A stretch of 64,000 nucleotides of DNA. Origin: Dermatophagoides farinae. Its lineage: Eukaryota; Arthropoda; Arachnida; Sarcoptiformes; Pyroglyphidae. Position 1 is the first letter of the stretch. Each line of letters opens with the position of its first letter. The translations under genes and the position numbers were made by a program. This document shows positions 25,245 to 34,200 of this stretch, piece after piece. The notes beneath the pieces are model-generated. The model was given only the letters and a program-made list of their open reading frames with translations. It did no database searches and was not told the origin of the DNA. The stretch is from positions 2,547,001-2,611,000 of the forward strand of contig NC_134679.1 in the NCBI RefSeq assembly GCF_024713945.1, written 5' to 3'.

Positions 25245-28200
25245 ATGAAAAATTTCCATGTCATCATCATCATCAACATCAACATTATTATCAACAATAG
25301 CTTCCCATTTATCCTCCTACTCTTCATCTTCATCATCATCATCATCATCATGTTTTTTTATTCTTCATCCAGTGAACGAAGAATATCAAAGAATATCGTA
25401 ACGACAAATATACAAACAAAAAACTATTTTCAAACAAATCCATTGTCATCGAGTAAACTTTATCATTGTCATCATTCACATCGAAGTTATTATTTTCATT
25501 GTTGTTGTTGTTTGTCAAAAGTTTCCACAAGTAATTTGTTCAAGTCCAAACTTCAACATGAACAAATACGACATTATTCGTATTATAATTTGCTGTTACA
25601 TCATGCATGGCATTCATGTTTATGGTTAATTTGTTTAATAGAATTTGCAAATATTTTTACCACTACTTTGGCCAACGATAATGTTCAACACCATTTTCAA
25701 CATAGACCACCCATTTTGATTGACTCAAATCCACTATTTCCATTGTATTTGGAACCAAATAGAGCCAGACATTTGTTCAGTCATGATGATGACCATTTTC
25801 ATCATCACCATCATCATCATTATCATCCAAGTAAAATTCGTCAATTTCCGATAGCCATAATGCGAAATTCATTACCTAATAATTCCAATTCAAAACGTCG
25901 ATATGACCAACAACACTATCACACCCGTCATCGATACCATAATCATCGTGGTAAATGTTATATTAAAAAATTTCAAATTTTATTTCACACATTTGAATAT
26001 CAATTCTAGTAATTTTGTGAAATTTCATTTCATTATAGCTATAGCCTACAAACAAGCACATACACACACACACACACACTCATATGTATGGTTCAAAATT
26101 TCCACCATTTTTTCAACACCCTAATGATAATCCATTACTGGTTTAGGGAGGATAGGAAGTCTGAAATGTTTGATTTCTTACTGGTTTAAGACGGTACAAA
26201 TACAAACATGAATTTTTTTTTGCACTCACTCAGTTTTTTTTCATTAGACAACATTGAAAACGATCATCAGAGAGTAAAAGTGAAAAAGAGAAAATTCGTG
26301 AAGATCTAAATTGATAAATGTTTGTTTATTTTCTAAATTCAAGTTTTTTTCCGTTTTCTTTTTCTTTTGAACCAAATTCGTAGAATAAATGTCAATTTGA
26401 AAGTACTGTTTATTCTAGTCGATAAATATTCAATTTACAATTCTTTAATTAAAAAATTTGTTTATATATTTGAAATTTAGTTTTTTTTCTAATTATCTGA
26501 ACTATGTTTTAATTTACATTACTGATATCGGCCGTCAACCAGACCAAGAAATAGACACCTGACTTGTATTCTGTTTTTTGTTGATGACAATCTTTTTCTT
26601 GTATATTCTATGAGGATAATTAATATGAAGACGTTCTTTTTTTCTTCTAAATTGTTAAAAATAGAAAATGCTCAATCTTCCTGTTAGAGTAAACGATAGA
26701 CGATAGACGATGTCTCATGTTTGAACTATGTCTTCTAACATCTTTGATTGAACCCTAATCATTTTAGATTGAACATGCTTATAAAAACGCATACACCAAT
26801 TGTAATTAGACGCAGATGTACATAGTGACACATACACTCTGACAATCGTTACACACACTTTCTTGGCTACATACATTTTGTTATTATGATCTTCACATCA
26901 TTTCTTTGTATTAATTTCTTTCATCCATATCCATATTTTTCTTTGCTTGTTTCAATAAACTAAATTCTCAAACAGGTTATGGGTCCACATGCTTAACGCT
27001 GTGATATATCCAGATTTATTTTTTTTTTATCCTTGTGATATCAATTTTTTGAATTTCATCAATTTTTAAAATCTGCGATATATGAAAAATGGATTTGTGC
27101 TTAAGAAAGAAAGCCAAACGTTTTGCTCAATCATCATCATCCCGCATCACCAATACTTCATCAATGAAGAATCAATCTAATGGTACATCGATGGTGTTTG
27201 CGAAGAAGACAAAAGTCTTAAGCCCGAAAAGGCGTTTTCAACATGTTCGTCAAATCGTAAATCGATTCGTAAATTGCAAAAGCGGCATGAACGACGAACA
27301 ACAACGGTACGATGATGAAAAGAAACTAAAAGACCGAAAAGTTTCCCTGATTGCAGCAGTGTCAACGATTGAGTCAGCTGATCTGTCAATACCACCAACG
27401 CCAAAATTTTATGCTGGATATGGTACAAGTAATCACATGGTGAACGACCAAAATCTATTGATTAATCAGCGTCGTACTGAACAATCAATTCAATCAATGA
27501 ATGGATCTGTTCGAAATACCATCATCGGCGATCTTCCTTGTGAAGTTTTCAATGGCAAACAGTGGATCAAAAGTGTAATTAGCGATGTATTGTTCATCCC
27601 AGATCAACCATTTAATGTCATTTCAATCGGTCAACTTTGCCGCGAGAAGGGTTTTAATGGCGAAACTGACAGTGAAGGCATGATCCTTTACCGCCATAAT
27701 CAACCAATAATGATAGCCGAATGGAGCAATCAATATGTCAACATGTTTGAGCTTCGTTTACGTGTCGAGCAAAATACAGCGCCACAAACTATTGCTTCTA
27801 ATCAAAACGAATACGTTTCAAAACAAATGTGTGCTGCTGAATCATCACCAGATACCATCACCTCAACTATTGAATCAGAGGTTGATGAAGTTGGCCGCAA
27901 TATCGTCGATGAATCTATTATTTCTTGTTTACCTGGTATTTCCAGAAGGGTTGCTGATGATCAACAGCTTCCAAACCGACATATTGGCATCTATGAATCA
28001 AATTTTAACGGTGATACGACACAATTTCCATCCGAAAAGATGATGAACATCGGCGTAAACAACAAAATTCCCTTCTTTGGTTTTAAACGAATCGTGAACG
28101 AACATTATGTTCTTACCGGCAACAATGATATTTTATCCTGGACATGTGTTTCCAGAGAAGCCGAGATTTTATTGAAAAATATTGGATCATTTCCTATTGA

Positions 28201-31200
28201 TGTTTTTAAATCATCGTTTTCAAATCGTGGTATTTTTAATGAAATCGGCCATATTATCGATCCGCCACGTAATTTTTATGATTTCAATTATCATTATATC
28301 AACATGCAGCATATTGCTCATAGTGTTTTGGCCTACCATCAGTCTGGTTCGAAACGAACTGAATCTGATGATGTTTATCGAATCAACGATTTGCCTCAAT
28401 TGATTAAATCGGATGAAATTTTGTACAATTGTCAGATGAAGATGTACCGTATTGGCTATGATATTCCCGATCTCAAATATAAATTTTCTCGTATTGTTAC
28501 CAAAATTGAATCGGATGACAATTTTCTTTTGAATTATCAGCCTATTTTCAAATGTTTAATTCCTGACAAATATCCCGATTTGAATCGTTTATCAATTTTT
28601 AACAAAAGTGAATCGAATTTTCATTTCGTCAATCATCAGATGTTTTCCCATTCTTTTCCTGATGAATTTTCTGTATTTAATTATTCACTTTGGCATCATC
28701 TGATTCGAAGCTCTTTTATTGGGCACATTATTTATGAATATCATCTTGGCCAACACTCAATCTTTTCTGGCTTTATTGTCATCATATTTTATACCCCCAA
28801 AATACCTCAAAATTTGATTTTCATTTCTTATTTCTGCCGATTATCTGGCCAAACGATAAATGGTACGGGGATGACGCTGCATCGACACAATAAGCCGAAT
28901 TATTTACTGACTGATCACGTTGTTAAATCTATGAAAATTTTTATCGATCATGTCACTGCTGATTTTATTGATATTGGTTCACGTGCTCTTTATTGTTTGA
29001 GCAAACGTTTTAATTTACACCAACAGGAACCATATCGTAAGTTTTTACCTGAAACAATTTCTTGTCTCGTTACAGACGACGTCAATGGACGATCATTTTA
29101 TGGAAATTCATTTCTGGTCGCAATTTTTGATTATTCTGTTTTTATGGAAAATTCACCTATTTTATCGTATGATTTTGAACGTATCGTAAATGCCTCCATA
29201 GTCGATGACTATGATGTTTCATCTATCCGGACAGACCATCGATCTGTGATATTTGCCAAGGATGCTGTTTTGTGTCTGGCACGGCATGGCATAAAATCTG
29301 GTTTTATTTCTTCTGAATTGCCATTGCAACATGGTCTCATGGATTTATGGATACGGAAAATTGCGAACCAACCAATATTGTTATTATCGTCAAAATTGTT
29401 TGCTCTTCATGGTATAAAAATCAACAATCATATGATCATTTCAAATTATTATTTTTCTATCGAGCAAAATTTTGGACGACGAATTTATTTAACATATTTC
29501 CATATTTTCACATTTATTGAATATTCCACGAACAATCGTGATGAAAACATTGTTAAATCAGTGAAAATCAAGTTTCTAATGATCGGATATTTTATCGAAA
29601 ATTTTTCATGTTATCGTTATTATCGACGCATTGAGCTATCCGATCCTATCACTATTTATGAAAAAGTCTCATGGAAGTCGTCACATCAATCGTATTTAAA
29701 GAAATTTACCGATTTTACAGCTATCAATGCTCTTCATCGTTTTAAGGTAAATATTCCCGAAATCAATGTCGATAATGGTGGAAGAAACAACGTAAAGATT
29801 ATCACCATCGATTCCGGTGGAAGCGTTTTGAATTTTCTCGACATCAATTCTGGTGGAAGCAGCATATCTTTAATTTTCGAAAAGTTTTCTGGTACTGGCA
29901 ATTTGATCATTGCTCAAATTATTTATGAACAGTCTTATAGACGTTTACCAGTAGCTGCTAAGTCCTTCCGTAGACAAAACGACATATTTTTAGCATCATT
30001 TGAAAGAAGTCTACGAACCACCGATCATTTATTGTCAAATTATTCACCATTACTATTCGACATAGCTGGTAAAATCGCAAAACCAAGATTGGTTGACCCA
30101 CCACCAAATGAAATTATTGTATCACGTAAACGGGTTGACTTGAAGATTCGATTGTATCGAACCATACGATTTGATGATTTGATCATATCTCAAATTTTTA
30201 AATTAATCATCGTTTTTATCGTCTTTAATTATTTCGTGAAATATTTATTTGATCCTTTAGACGAAACCTTTTATTGGTTGAATTTAACCCACGAAGTAGA
30301 TTTACGTTTGTATTTAGCTTCATTTGATCATATTGAATCTGTCCTACAAACTTTGAACAAACCGAAATGGTACAATTTTATCTCTTATTTGGACGAATTG
30401 ATCAATTTCTACAAATCTACTTCGATTGGACGAAACCGATTACAAAATAACTTGGATTTTGAAAATATCCGTATTAAGTTATATTTATTGTTCATCAAGC
30501 GATTGATATTCGCACGCATCGTTTTACTCGCTCATTTTCTGCTCAACACATTGGTCAATATCAAAACGGTAAAACGATTATATCGATATTTTGATTGGAT
30601 TTCAATTGAACTTCTGGATTTATTATCGATGGATTACTTGGTATCATTGAAGCCCATTTCCATGGCATTTAAATTATTGGTCCTTTCATTTGTGGACATA
30701 TTCCTTCATCATATCCATCGTTACAACATTCAATTTGTTTTTGATCACATCTTTATTTCCAGAAGCTGCATGACCATTCGTCAATCGGGTGGAAGTGTTA
30801 GAGTAAACGATAGACGATAGACGATGTCTCATGTTTGAACTATGTCTTCTAACATCTTTGATTGAACCCTAATCATTTTAGATTGAACATGCTTATAAAA
30901 ACGCATACACCAATTGTAATTAGACGCAGATGTACATAGTGACACATACACTCTGACAATCGTTACACACACTTTCTTGGCTACATACATTTTGTTATTA
31001 TGATCTTCACATCATTTCTTTGTATTAATTTCTTTCATCCATATCCATATTTTTCTTTGCTTGTTTCAATAAACTAAATTCTCAAACACTTCCAACAAAA
31101 AAGAAAAAAGAAAAATTGTTTTTTCCTAACTAACACAGCAAAAAAACCTTTCATTTTCCAGCTTATTTTTGACCGATAAAATATAACCTTAGAAGAGCCA

Positions 31201-34200
31201 ATTTTTTTTCGTCATTGCATTAATTTATTTATTTTTTTTTTATCATTTGTCTGTACAATATAGAAAATTCTCGAATAATCAATAGTACTGGTAATGGAAA
31301 CGTTGGTTATGGTATACCGGTTTTGACTAAAACCATTGGAGAAATGATGATTATGCAACAAAATAGACCTCTTAGAAGTGATAATAAACAATGGAATAAT
31401 GATGAAAATATACCGATAATGTATCAAGATCGTGATCATTTAATTCATAATAATATGAATAACAATGAAAACAATCATACAATTTCCATTATTGATAATT
31501 ATAATAATGAAAAGAATGGAAAATATTCGATAATAAAAATGAAAAAACCATTGAATATAAATAACGAAGCTGATGATAATATTCAAATCATGCAAAAAAC
31601 ACAATCTGTGATTCAAAAAATCATACCAACAATGTTGAAAGATAAGAAATTTGTAACAAAAACTATGAAGAAGAATGAAAAGAATTTCGTCAACAACAAA
31701 ATTAATCTGAATAGCTCGAATGATGATGATGATGATGGTGATGATGGCGATGATGATGATGACAATAGAAGTATTAATAATGAAAATTTCTTAAATAGAA
31801 TTCCGAATAAACTCAATCATTCAAGTAATGACATTAAGATTCTCGATCCTATAATATCGAGTGGAAATAATAATCACAGTAACAATGAACAAATTGATTT
31901 TGATGAATATCGATTGAAAAAATGGCCAATTTTTATGGTTGAAAAACCACGGAAAAAATTTCCAATTAAAACTGATTCGATGATTAATCGTTTCGATATA
32001 GATCAAATGTCAAATACTGATTATTTTAATAGCAATGAAAACAACAAAGATCAAATAATAATTCCATTTGGAACATCATATCATCACGGAAATGATGATA
32101 ATGATAAAGTTGAACAAAAACAATCTAAAGATTGTCTTGTGAATCAAACATTATCAAATCAAATACTACAAAAATCAGAAAATTCAAATCATGATGATGA
32201 ATATGGTTCAGATTCTATGCATGAACATCATCATCATAATGGTGGCAATGATAATAATGATGGAAATGGTAATAAAATTGAAACTTTTTTAAATTTAAAA
32301 AACATTTCTACAAATCATTGGAGACCAATAGTTCAAATATCACGGCCATATTCATTGTATGAACATAATCAAAATGAAAGTCGTCAACATTCGCATCAAC
32401 AATATCATGATAATCATTATATAAATGATAACGATCAATTGGATGAAAATTACAACCAGTTTGTTCATAACAATAGTAATGATGATGATGATGTTGACAA
32501 TAATAATAACAATAACAATATCGTTTATGATGGAAACAATCTATCACTATCGAATTTCAATAACAATAATGACAATTTTGATGACAATGTTGATCATTTC
32601 AATAATATTGGAAATAAAAAGCCGACCAAAGAAATAATGGAAGAACAATATGGCCATCATCATCATCATCATCAAATGAACAAGAACAATAATGATGATG
32701 ATGATGATGATGAAAAAAATGATAGCCGACAACAAGAACAAAAAAAAGGACAAGCTATTGATGGAAGTGGTGGAAATATTGATGATTATGATGATGGTGG
32801 TGGTGATGATGATGATGATGATAAAATTTCATCAACTAGATCAAAACAACGACAAAAAAATGACATGAATTCAATCGAACAACAACAACAACAACAAGAA
32901 CATGGAATAAAAAATGAAACTTTGTCGATCAAAGTAAGTAAATGCATTGTATATAATATATGAGACCAATTTCAATCTTAGTTGACATTACAAATATGAA
33001 CTAGTTCAATCTAATTCTGTTGTTGTTATTCCGTTTTTTTTTTTTTTTTTTTTGCTATTATGCTTAGAATTTATGCCATTTTTTTATGTGAAAGCAAATG
33101 ATGAGAGAAAAAAATCGAAATTGAAATGATCGATGACTTTTTTTTATATAATTCAAATTTATAAAATGAATCAATAGATAGAGAGAAAAAACGTCATGCT
33201 CGAATAAATTGCATAATCCATATTCACATCGATGATGATGATGATCGATTTATACATACAGACAGATACAAATTACAAACCAACAGAAACATAACAAAAC
33301 AGTAAGAGGTTTATAGTTAAAAGAATTGAAATTGAGATTTTTAAAAGATAACAAAATGAAGTTCAGCAGCAGCAGAATAATCAACAAAAATGAACACTAG
33401 GTAAAGAATTTTTTTTTGTTCAATATACAAATCTTGTTCTGTACACAGGAATCGGTGAGAAATTGGCCGAATTAATTATGCAGAGAGGCACAAACAACCA
33501 ATTAGCAGACTTTAGAAACCGTTGAGTGAAAAAAATATTTTCAAAATTGTTTTGTTGATACCATCTACCAATTAAAGCGTAAGAATGTTATTACAACAAT
33601 AATCAACAGCTAATCATTAAATGAAAATCTTCTTGTAAAACTACTTATAGGATTAATTTTTTTTCACACAAAAATTTTTCATTTTTCTTATATATGTTTT
33701 CTATTATGGAAAGTTGTTTGTTACTACTGCTTCTGGTGTTTTTTTTTCCTAACATCTTTTTTTTCAGTTCATATACTCATTATTTCTTTTCTGTGATTTC
33801 ATGGCAATTGTTTCCACATTACGACGAATTTCTAAATCTAAATTGTTAGTATATCATTGCCTAGGACATAATACAATTAATTTATTTACTCATTTTTAAT
33901 TCTAATACTAATTATTTTTGCTTGTTGTTTTTCTTTTAGAACAATAGGCTCATTTCATATATTGTCAATTATTTATAAGAATCGCATTTACGGTCTATAT
34001 GGGATTTTTTTTTTACTGTTTTCCAGTTTCCAGTTTAAACTGTATATATATGACAATGAATGATTCTTGATTTTTTTTTTGTATGAGTTTTTCTTTTGGG
34101 AATCTTGTTTTTCTCGGTTTTTGATTGCTTTCTTTGTTTCAAAAGCAATCACAATTCTACAATTCTAGAATTCAGTCCATTTTGTAGACTAGACAGTTGG

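Follow-up and report, generated by a model that had tools for sequence, protein, structure and literature searches.

Two non-autonomous families of long terminal repeat (LTR) retrotransposons are the closest described parallels to the element reported here, which lies at positions 26682-31088 of the window, that is, the whole stretch of 64,000 nucleotides analyzed from the mite Dermatophagoides farinae (contig NC_134679.1, positions 2,547,001 to 2,611,000 of the forward strand; assembly GCF_024713945.1). In Arabidopsis, pol-less Athila families retain intact Gag and Env open reading frames (ORFs) under purifying selection, as described in the available part of that report (PMC2410132). The same part indicates that Athila and the mite element are alike in being pol-less LTR elements with intact ORFs, mobilization in trans, and recombination with relatives, and that they differ in what is selected: Gag and Env in Athila, whereas the mite frame is a decayed Gag-Pol with a dN/dS ratio (omega) not different from 1 (PMC2410132). 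In wheat, non-autonomous sub-families of RLC_Angela carry numerous frameshifts and stops in degenerate coding sequence, according to the portion of the source available (PMC9744471). Angela, which in that portion co-evolves with autonomous partners, is likewise a copia with degenerate coding sequence, but its frame is broken, while the degenerate frame here is open in three of the four copies (PMC9744471). The window family is intermediate between the two, decayed yet open. No description of it was found in the literature on Dermatophagoides LTR retrotransposons, as far as our partial coverage of that literature extends.

The element is almost certainly a decayed copia that has been mobilized in trans. 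Its structural features, as initially annotated from the sequence, are all intact and are listed here in order along the window.

26677..26681, no strand: target-site duplication CTTCC, left copy
26682..26974, plus strand: 5' LTR of 293 bp, TGTTAGAG...CTCAAACA
26975..26988, plus strand: primer-binding site GGTTATGGGTCCAC, directly 3' of the 5' LTR
26975..27088, plus strand: leader, in which 1 of 114 columns is variable among the three open copies
27089..30820, plus strand: single ORF of 1243 codons, with its stop within the 3' LTR
30786..30795, plus strand: polypurine tract CGGGTGGAAG, directly 5' of the 3' LTR
30796..31088, plus strand: 3' LTR, same sequence as the 5' LTR
31089..31093, no strand: target-site duplication CTTCC, right copy

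With no differences between its LTRs (0/293), the window element is a real and recent LTR retrotransposon. The 1243-codon frame is real as well, since the chance of as many stop-free codons at the base composition of the ORF is 1.4e-38; the other five frames contain 68, 100, 86, 77, and 96 stops. The assembly that holds the window, of 62.4 Mb, also contains a gene of the Blo-t-5 family whose product equals Der f 21 at residues 20-131 of the alignment, which identifies the host as D. farinae. A search by LTR over this assembly, in which counts are lower bounds, returned eight matches belonging to at least four elements: the window copy and copies on C8, C10 (L070), and C4 (L071). All four have TG..CA LTR ends, a 5-bp target duplication (CTTCC, GCTCA, GATTC, and TGAAT), and LTR pairs without a single difference (over 293, 260, 243, and 243 bp). 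Three of the frames are open, with 1243 codons in the window and 1258 in each of the other two; the 15 codons missing from the window frame are explained by an LTR difference that includes a 7-base gap. In the C4 copy the frame ends after 70 codons, eight stops occur in matched stretches, and 17 of the 25 insertions or deletions (indels) relative to the window copy are out of frame (one of the 25 is the window's own 3-base gap). Thus, all four copies transposed recently without recognizable enzymes of their own, C4 even with a 70-codon frame.

The copies are also related in a patchwork manner. C4 and C10 share their LTR (0/243) but have mosaic interiors, and C4 equals C8 at mid-interior stretches of 0/300 and 0/265 differing columns, a pattern attributable to template switching or conversion. 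The deletions in C4 (1-46 bases) are mostly crowded into about 1 kb, columns ~1750-2820 of the internal alignment, with nearly unchanged flanks.

The copia origin of the frame is firm. What it encodes is a Ty1/copia Gag-Pol in a decayed and rearranged state, in which the following parts were located by amino acid (aa) position.

27362..27775, plus strand: copia protease-like beta-barrel (Pol_BBD), aa 92-229, found by Pfam, BLASTP, hhalign, and shuffles
28082..28273, plus strand: probable first integrase fragment, aa 332-395, with BLAST and shuffles for it and hhalign (1.6%) against it
28697..28897, plus strand: end of the beta-barrel block, probably present here as a second, partial copy, aa 537-603
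29078..29842, plus strand: integrase core and C-terminal region, aa 664-918, with the second Asp kept and Glu changed to Asp
30089..30130, plus strand: possible, weak vestige of the reverse transcriptase (RT) N-terminus, aa 1001-1014
30518..30595, plus strand: possible, weak to moderate vestige of the region behind RT, aa 1144-1169

PF22936 (Pol_BBD) matched aa 111-189 (2.8e-10) and was the only Pfam family to reach the cut-off in the window ORF, where rve gave no match. BLASTP against copia pieces aligned aa 27-395 with L042, a copia present at full length in this genome (7e-43, 31% identity), and aa 537-918 with the same protein (2e-20, 26% identity), the latter spanning the integrase core and C-terminal region. 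By hhalign, aa 92-226 matched at 99.6% and aa 557-866 at 96.8%. The best z values in a shuffle test against 11 copia pieces, with 60 shuffles each, were 73 for aa 91-232, 24 for aa 640-770, 12 for aa 770-930, 11 for aa 537-640, 10 for aa 300-395, and 2.8 for aa 1-90; aa 233-330 and 396-536 scored at noise level against these pieces. A search of the mite genome with the ORF gave 29 match rows, seven to the family itself and 22 to other copia elements, and these 22 fall in segments 25-282 and 642-929. Six-frame blastx of the unmatched segments placed 51 rows in the ORF frame and five in frame -2. Frame-shifted or antisense copia in these segments was rejected, as the frame -2 rows reach E 1.7 only.

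The initial annotation had called the protein an orphan without a match to copia pol, which these results contradict, and of the two origins it offered, a captured or newly evolved protein is at odds with the homology of aa 92-229 and 664-918 to copia polyproteins of the same genome. The other, a polyprotein too diverged for motif reading, is borne out by BLASTP and hhalign. It had also reported no integrase, RT, or RNase H; the first was wrong, given the BLASTP match of 2e-20, while the other two are indeed not recognizable (Pfam to E 10). An integrase-core match, which it took to speak against its view, was found as homology (BLASTP 2e-20, hhalign 96.8%) and not as Pfam rve.

Copia-type sequences run from beta-barrel to integrase in the order of Ty1/copia, with a probable duplicated block inside. 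Residues 338-602 of the relative are matched twice, which indicates a duplicated beta-barrel-to-integrase block. An internal partial duplication between the beta-barrel and integrase regions is thus probable, as is the first integrase fragment, which is graded no higher because profile comparison gives 1.6%. Structure prediction from single sequences reached a mean pLDDT of 44.8 for aa 930-1243 and 31.4 for aa 90-396, too low for a fold. Three stretches of viral contigs matched a search pattern and none codes for a relative.

Several functions of the ancestral polyprotein are lost or damaged. The relative has gag, beta-barrel, gag_pre-integrs, rve, SH3-like, and RVT_2 domains, and the match of the window frame begins where its gag ends (gag at L042 aa 80-212, match from 212 onwards), so that the capsid is gone. 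Where the relative has the protease motif ADTGAS, the three open copies have AGYGTS, so the catalytic Asp is lost. In the integrase, the second Asp is retained (RTDHG in relatives, RTDHR/Q here), the Glu of the relatives' (V/C/A)ER is replaced by Asp in a loose part of the alignment, and, in the same loose alignment, the first Asp is doubtful and one cysteine of the zinc site has been substituted; we take these motif residues to have the catalytic and zinc-site roles. No recognizable RT, RNase H, or capsid was found in the ORF by Pfam to E 10 or by profile comparison, and the 45 RVT_2 matches in the genome include none at the four family copies. For RT, hhalign reached at most 7.4%. Against L032, aa 1144-1169 scored z 5.4 with none of 200 shuffles as high, and against L017, aa 1001-1014 was equaled by four of 200, so that RT may be left as short vestiges at most. 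The missing capsid and RT and the damaged catalytic positions support, at the level of sequence, the earlier suggestion that the family is non-autonomous.

The oddity of this decayed protein is the openness of its frame. The three open copies differ by 130 singleton substitutions over 1240 codons, and none of these is a stop, against 6.8-7.1 expected when the same 130 changes are placed at random (three backgrounds, 4000 runs each); stop-free outcomes numbered 0, 2, and 6 of 4000. With only the changes of the C8 and C10 copies, 4.8-4.9 stops are expected and 34, 31, and 35 of 4000 runs were stop-free. The expectation leans low, because the changes counted are survivors. Upstream of the 3' LTR, all four indels among the open copies are multiples of three, while those in the leader are of 6, 2, and 1. 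Since the last two thirds of the frame lost nearly all copia features without gaining a stop, a long drift with the frame kept open is needed.

As for selection on the protein, the initial annotation had anticipated many copies under purifying selection; instead, at least four were found, three of them open, and a codon model for these three gave an omega of 0.79 (p 0.25 versus 1). Pairwise dN/dS by NG86 was 0.89, 0.54, and 0.69, and amino-acid-changing codons numbered 55, 67, and 60, compared to 49.7, 65.4, and 57.1 expected by random placement of the same changes. Omega was 0.598 for aa 1-395 and 0.855 for aa 396-1243, neither different from 1, and no segment differed from 1 at p<0.05. The two parts diverge in other respects. 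Singleton changes at codon positions 1/2/3 were 7/4/14 in aa 1-395 and 37/36/32 in the rest, a difference in position-3 share (Fisher p 0.021) that is indicative, because the split at 395 was set from the homology map after the composition result, though before the count. A composition score able to tell copia proteins from random sequence without stops was 0.126 +- 0.028 for aa 1-395 and -0.032 +- 0.021 for aa 396-1243, compared to 0.052 to 0.146 for 17 other copia pieces (one of which, L058, overlaps the training set) and -0.106 for random sequence. The first part may still be constrained, as protein or as RNA, while aa 396-1243 appears to drift as if its amino acid sequence matters little.

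The best explanation overall, for which we consider the evidence evenly poised, would be a non-autonomous copia that is mobilized in trans and in which the main reasons for an open frame lie with RNA or translation. Taken alone, the proposal that openness is kept for such reasons and not for the protein falls slightly short of an even balance on the sequence data. The RNA of the element would keep the copying signals (LTRs, tRNA-Met primer site, purine tract, and conserved internal ends), and the proteins of another copia would package, reverse-transcribe, and integrate it. An early stop would put an RNA at a disadvantage, most likely because RNAs left untranslated over a long 3' part are degraded or because a benefit of translation is lost, and amino acid identity in the last two thirds would matter little. 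The frame spans the internal region from 114 bases past the 5' LTR into the 3' LTR, and thus leaves no long untranslated part. Full-length retroviral RNAs are exposed to decay through their long 3' untranslated parts, according to the available portions of two reports (PMC2925335, PMC5580461). As a more general and more tentative proposition, selection on translation or RNA fate may keep a mobile frame open with almost none on the protein over some 850 codons, such that coding protects the RNA of a parasite.

Several observations weigh against this explanation. C4 moved recently (LTR 0/243, 5-bp duplication) despite its broken frame, which means that movement does not strictly depend on an open frame in cis; any effect of openness would be one of degree. 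The 7-base LTR gap of the window copy is itself an out-of-frame change, at the very end of the frame. The absence of stops rests on three open copies with a mostly common history. The omega point estimates are below 1 (0.79; 0.54-0.89 by NG86), so the protein may be under weak constraint, and GC content by codon position (0.404/0.316/0.318) is highest at position 1, so that a coding trace remains.

A protein function is the strongest competitor, though an unlikely one. The frame would then code for a new or reduced product, acting in trans or in cis, for example an RNA-binding or particle-associated Gag-Pol remnant that evolves fast under weak constraint. The copia-like composition of aa 1-395 and the concentration of its changes at third positions both favor this, as does the omega of 0.09 (p 0.057) in aa 1-90, the segment nearest to significance. 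However, aa 1-90 has few changes of any kind, like the leader, and RNA constraint explains its low omega equally well. The catalytic positions of the protease and integrase are lost, aa 396-1243 has no codon-position signature, omega is below 1 at p<0.05 in no segment, and C4 moved without the protein. It is also improbable, somewhat more so, that openness was never selected and reflects a recently open ancestor and luck, or recombination among copies that removed broken pieces. The copies are few, one of them is broken, and their mosaic relations (C4 with C10 in the LTR, C4 with C8 in the interior) suit such an account, but about seven stops were expected where none occurred, and the last two thirds shed almost every copia feature without the gain of one. 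That a copia element captured a host gene is very improbable: neither aa 233-331 nor aa 396-536 has a match of its own, but no Pfam family other than PF22936 reached the cut-off, a PDB sequence search with the whole ORF found no solved structure to E 10, and the 22 of 29 own-genome rows outside the family all start in copia-like segments, in a search that did not go gene by gene through the host.

For the three open copies, counts of variable columns are 1/114 for the leader, 3/270 for the first codons, 10/426 and 12/490 for what follows, 100/2100 for the middle, and 4/427 for the 3' end; this conservation of both internal ends resembles cis-acting RNA signals. The primer site GGTTATGGGTCCAC could pair at 12 of its 14 bases with the anticodon arm of a tRNA-Met (CAT) encoded in the same genome. 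Of 21 locus pairs examined, 20 had a repeat pair, and only in the elements at C1:3694k and C8:452k does a tract end in GGGGAAG and lead into TGTTAAAG, which comes closest to GGTGGAAG-TGTTAGAG of the window element. These full-length copias (C1:3694267-3696801 and C8:452807-455341), whose LTRs are identical within each copy and which therefore moved recently too, are by this likeness of tract and LTR start the nearest candidates for a helper. They share with the window element a homologous polyprotein, the LTR start (TGTTAAAG versus TGTTAGAG), a tract ending GGAAG, and a tRNA-Met-type primer site, and differ from it in a single open frame of 1354-1355 codons, which encodes gag, beta-barrel, integrase, and RVT_2, and in LTRs that are unlike beyond the start. 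Another small element, at C2:2677k (LTRs 97.5% identical), shares the primer site but was rejected as a partner because its sequence is unlike.

Three other copias of this genome that lack RT resemble the window element in having an LTR pair, one open frame, and no RVT_2 match.

C5:640800-646500 (L073): open frame of 787 codons, LTRs 99.3% identical
C5:3299800-3305300 (L074): open frame of 803 codons, LTRs 100% identical
C4:2314800-2320000 (L077): open frame of 777 codons, LTRs 100% identical

L073 and L074 differ from it in being near-identical deletion derivatives of full-length elements, and for L077 the best match is at 47% likeness; in all three, unlike in the window element, most of the frame is still similar to Gag-Pol. 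As L073 and L074 are recent deletion derivatives, RT-less open frames are ordinary in this genome and only the deep decay of the window family is unusual. What remains odd is that an open frame outlived its protein, on three copies. This is also a caution that, in a mobile element, the length of an open frame alone is not evidence for a functional protein. If the proposed explanation is true, selection on translation could be told apart from selection on the protein in an element that kept its open frame after losing its protein, and the shaping of parasite genomes by RNA surveillance would become testable. House dust mites have been reported, in the part of the source available, to lack Piwi-interacting RNAs and to use small interfering RNAs against transposons, which makes RNA-level selection on their elements of interest.

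Other features were observed in the window and elsewhere in the genome. Adjoining the element is a 546-codon frame rich in Asn and Asp runs (window 31323-32963). Elsewhere in the genome, a small element around 1302-2685 of locus L081, on the minus strand of that locus, has 199-bp LTRs that are 97.5% identical, a gag-like fragment, and a similar primer site. At two truncated copias, L075 (C6:4893000-4898000) and L076 (C10:1071500-1077000), about 1 kb on the left is repeated on the right at 97.4% and 98.9%, respectively, possibly where two haplotypes were joined in the assembly.

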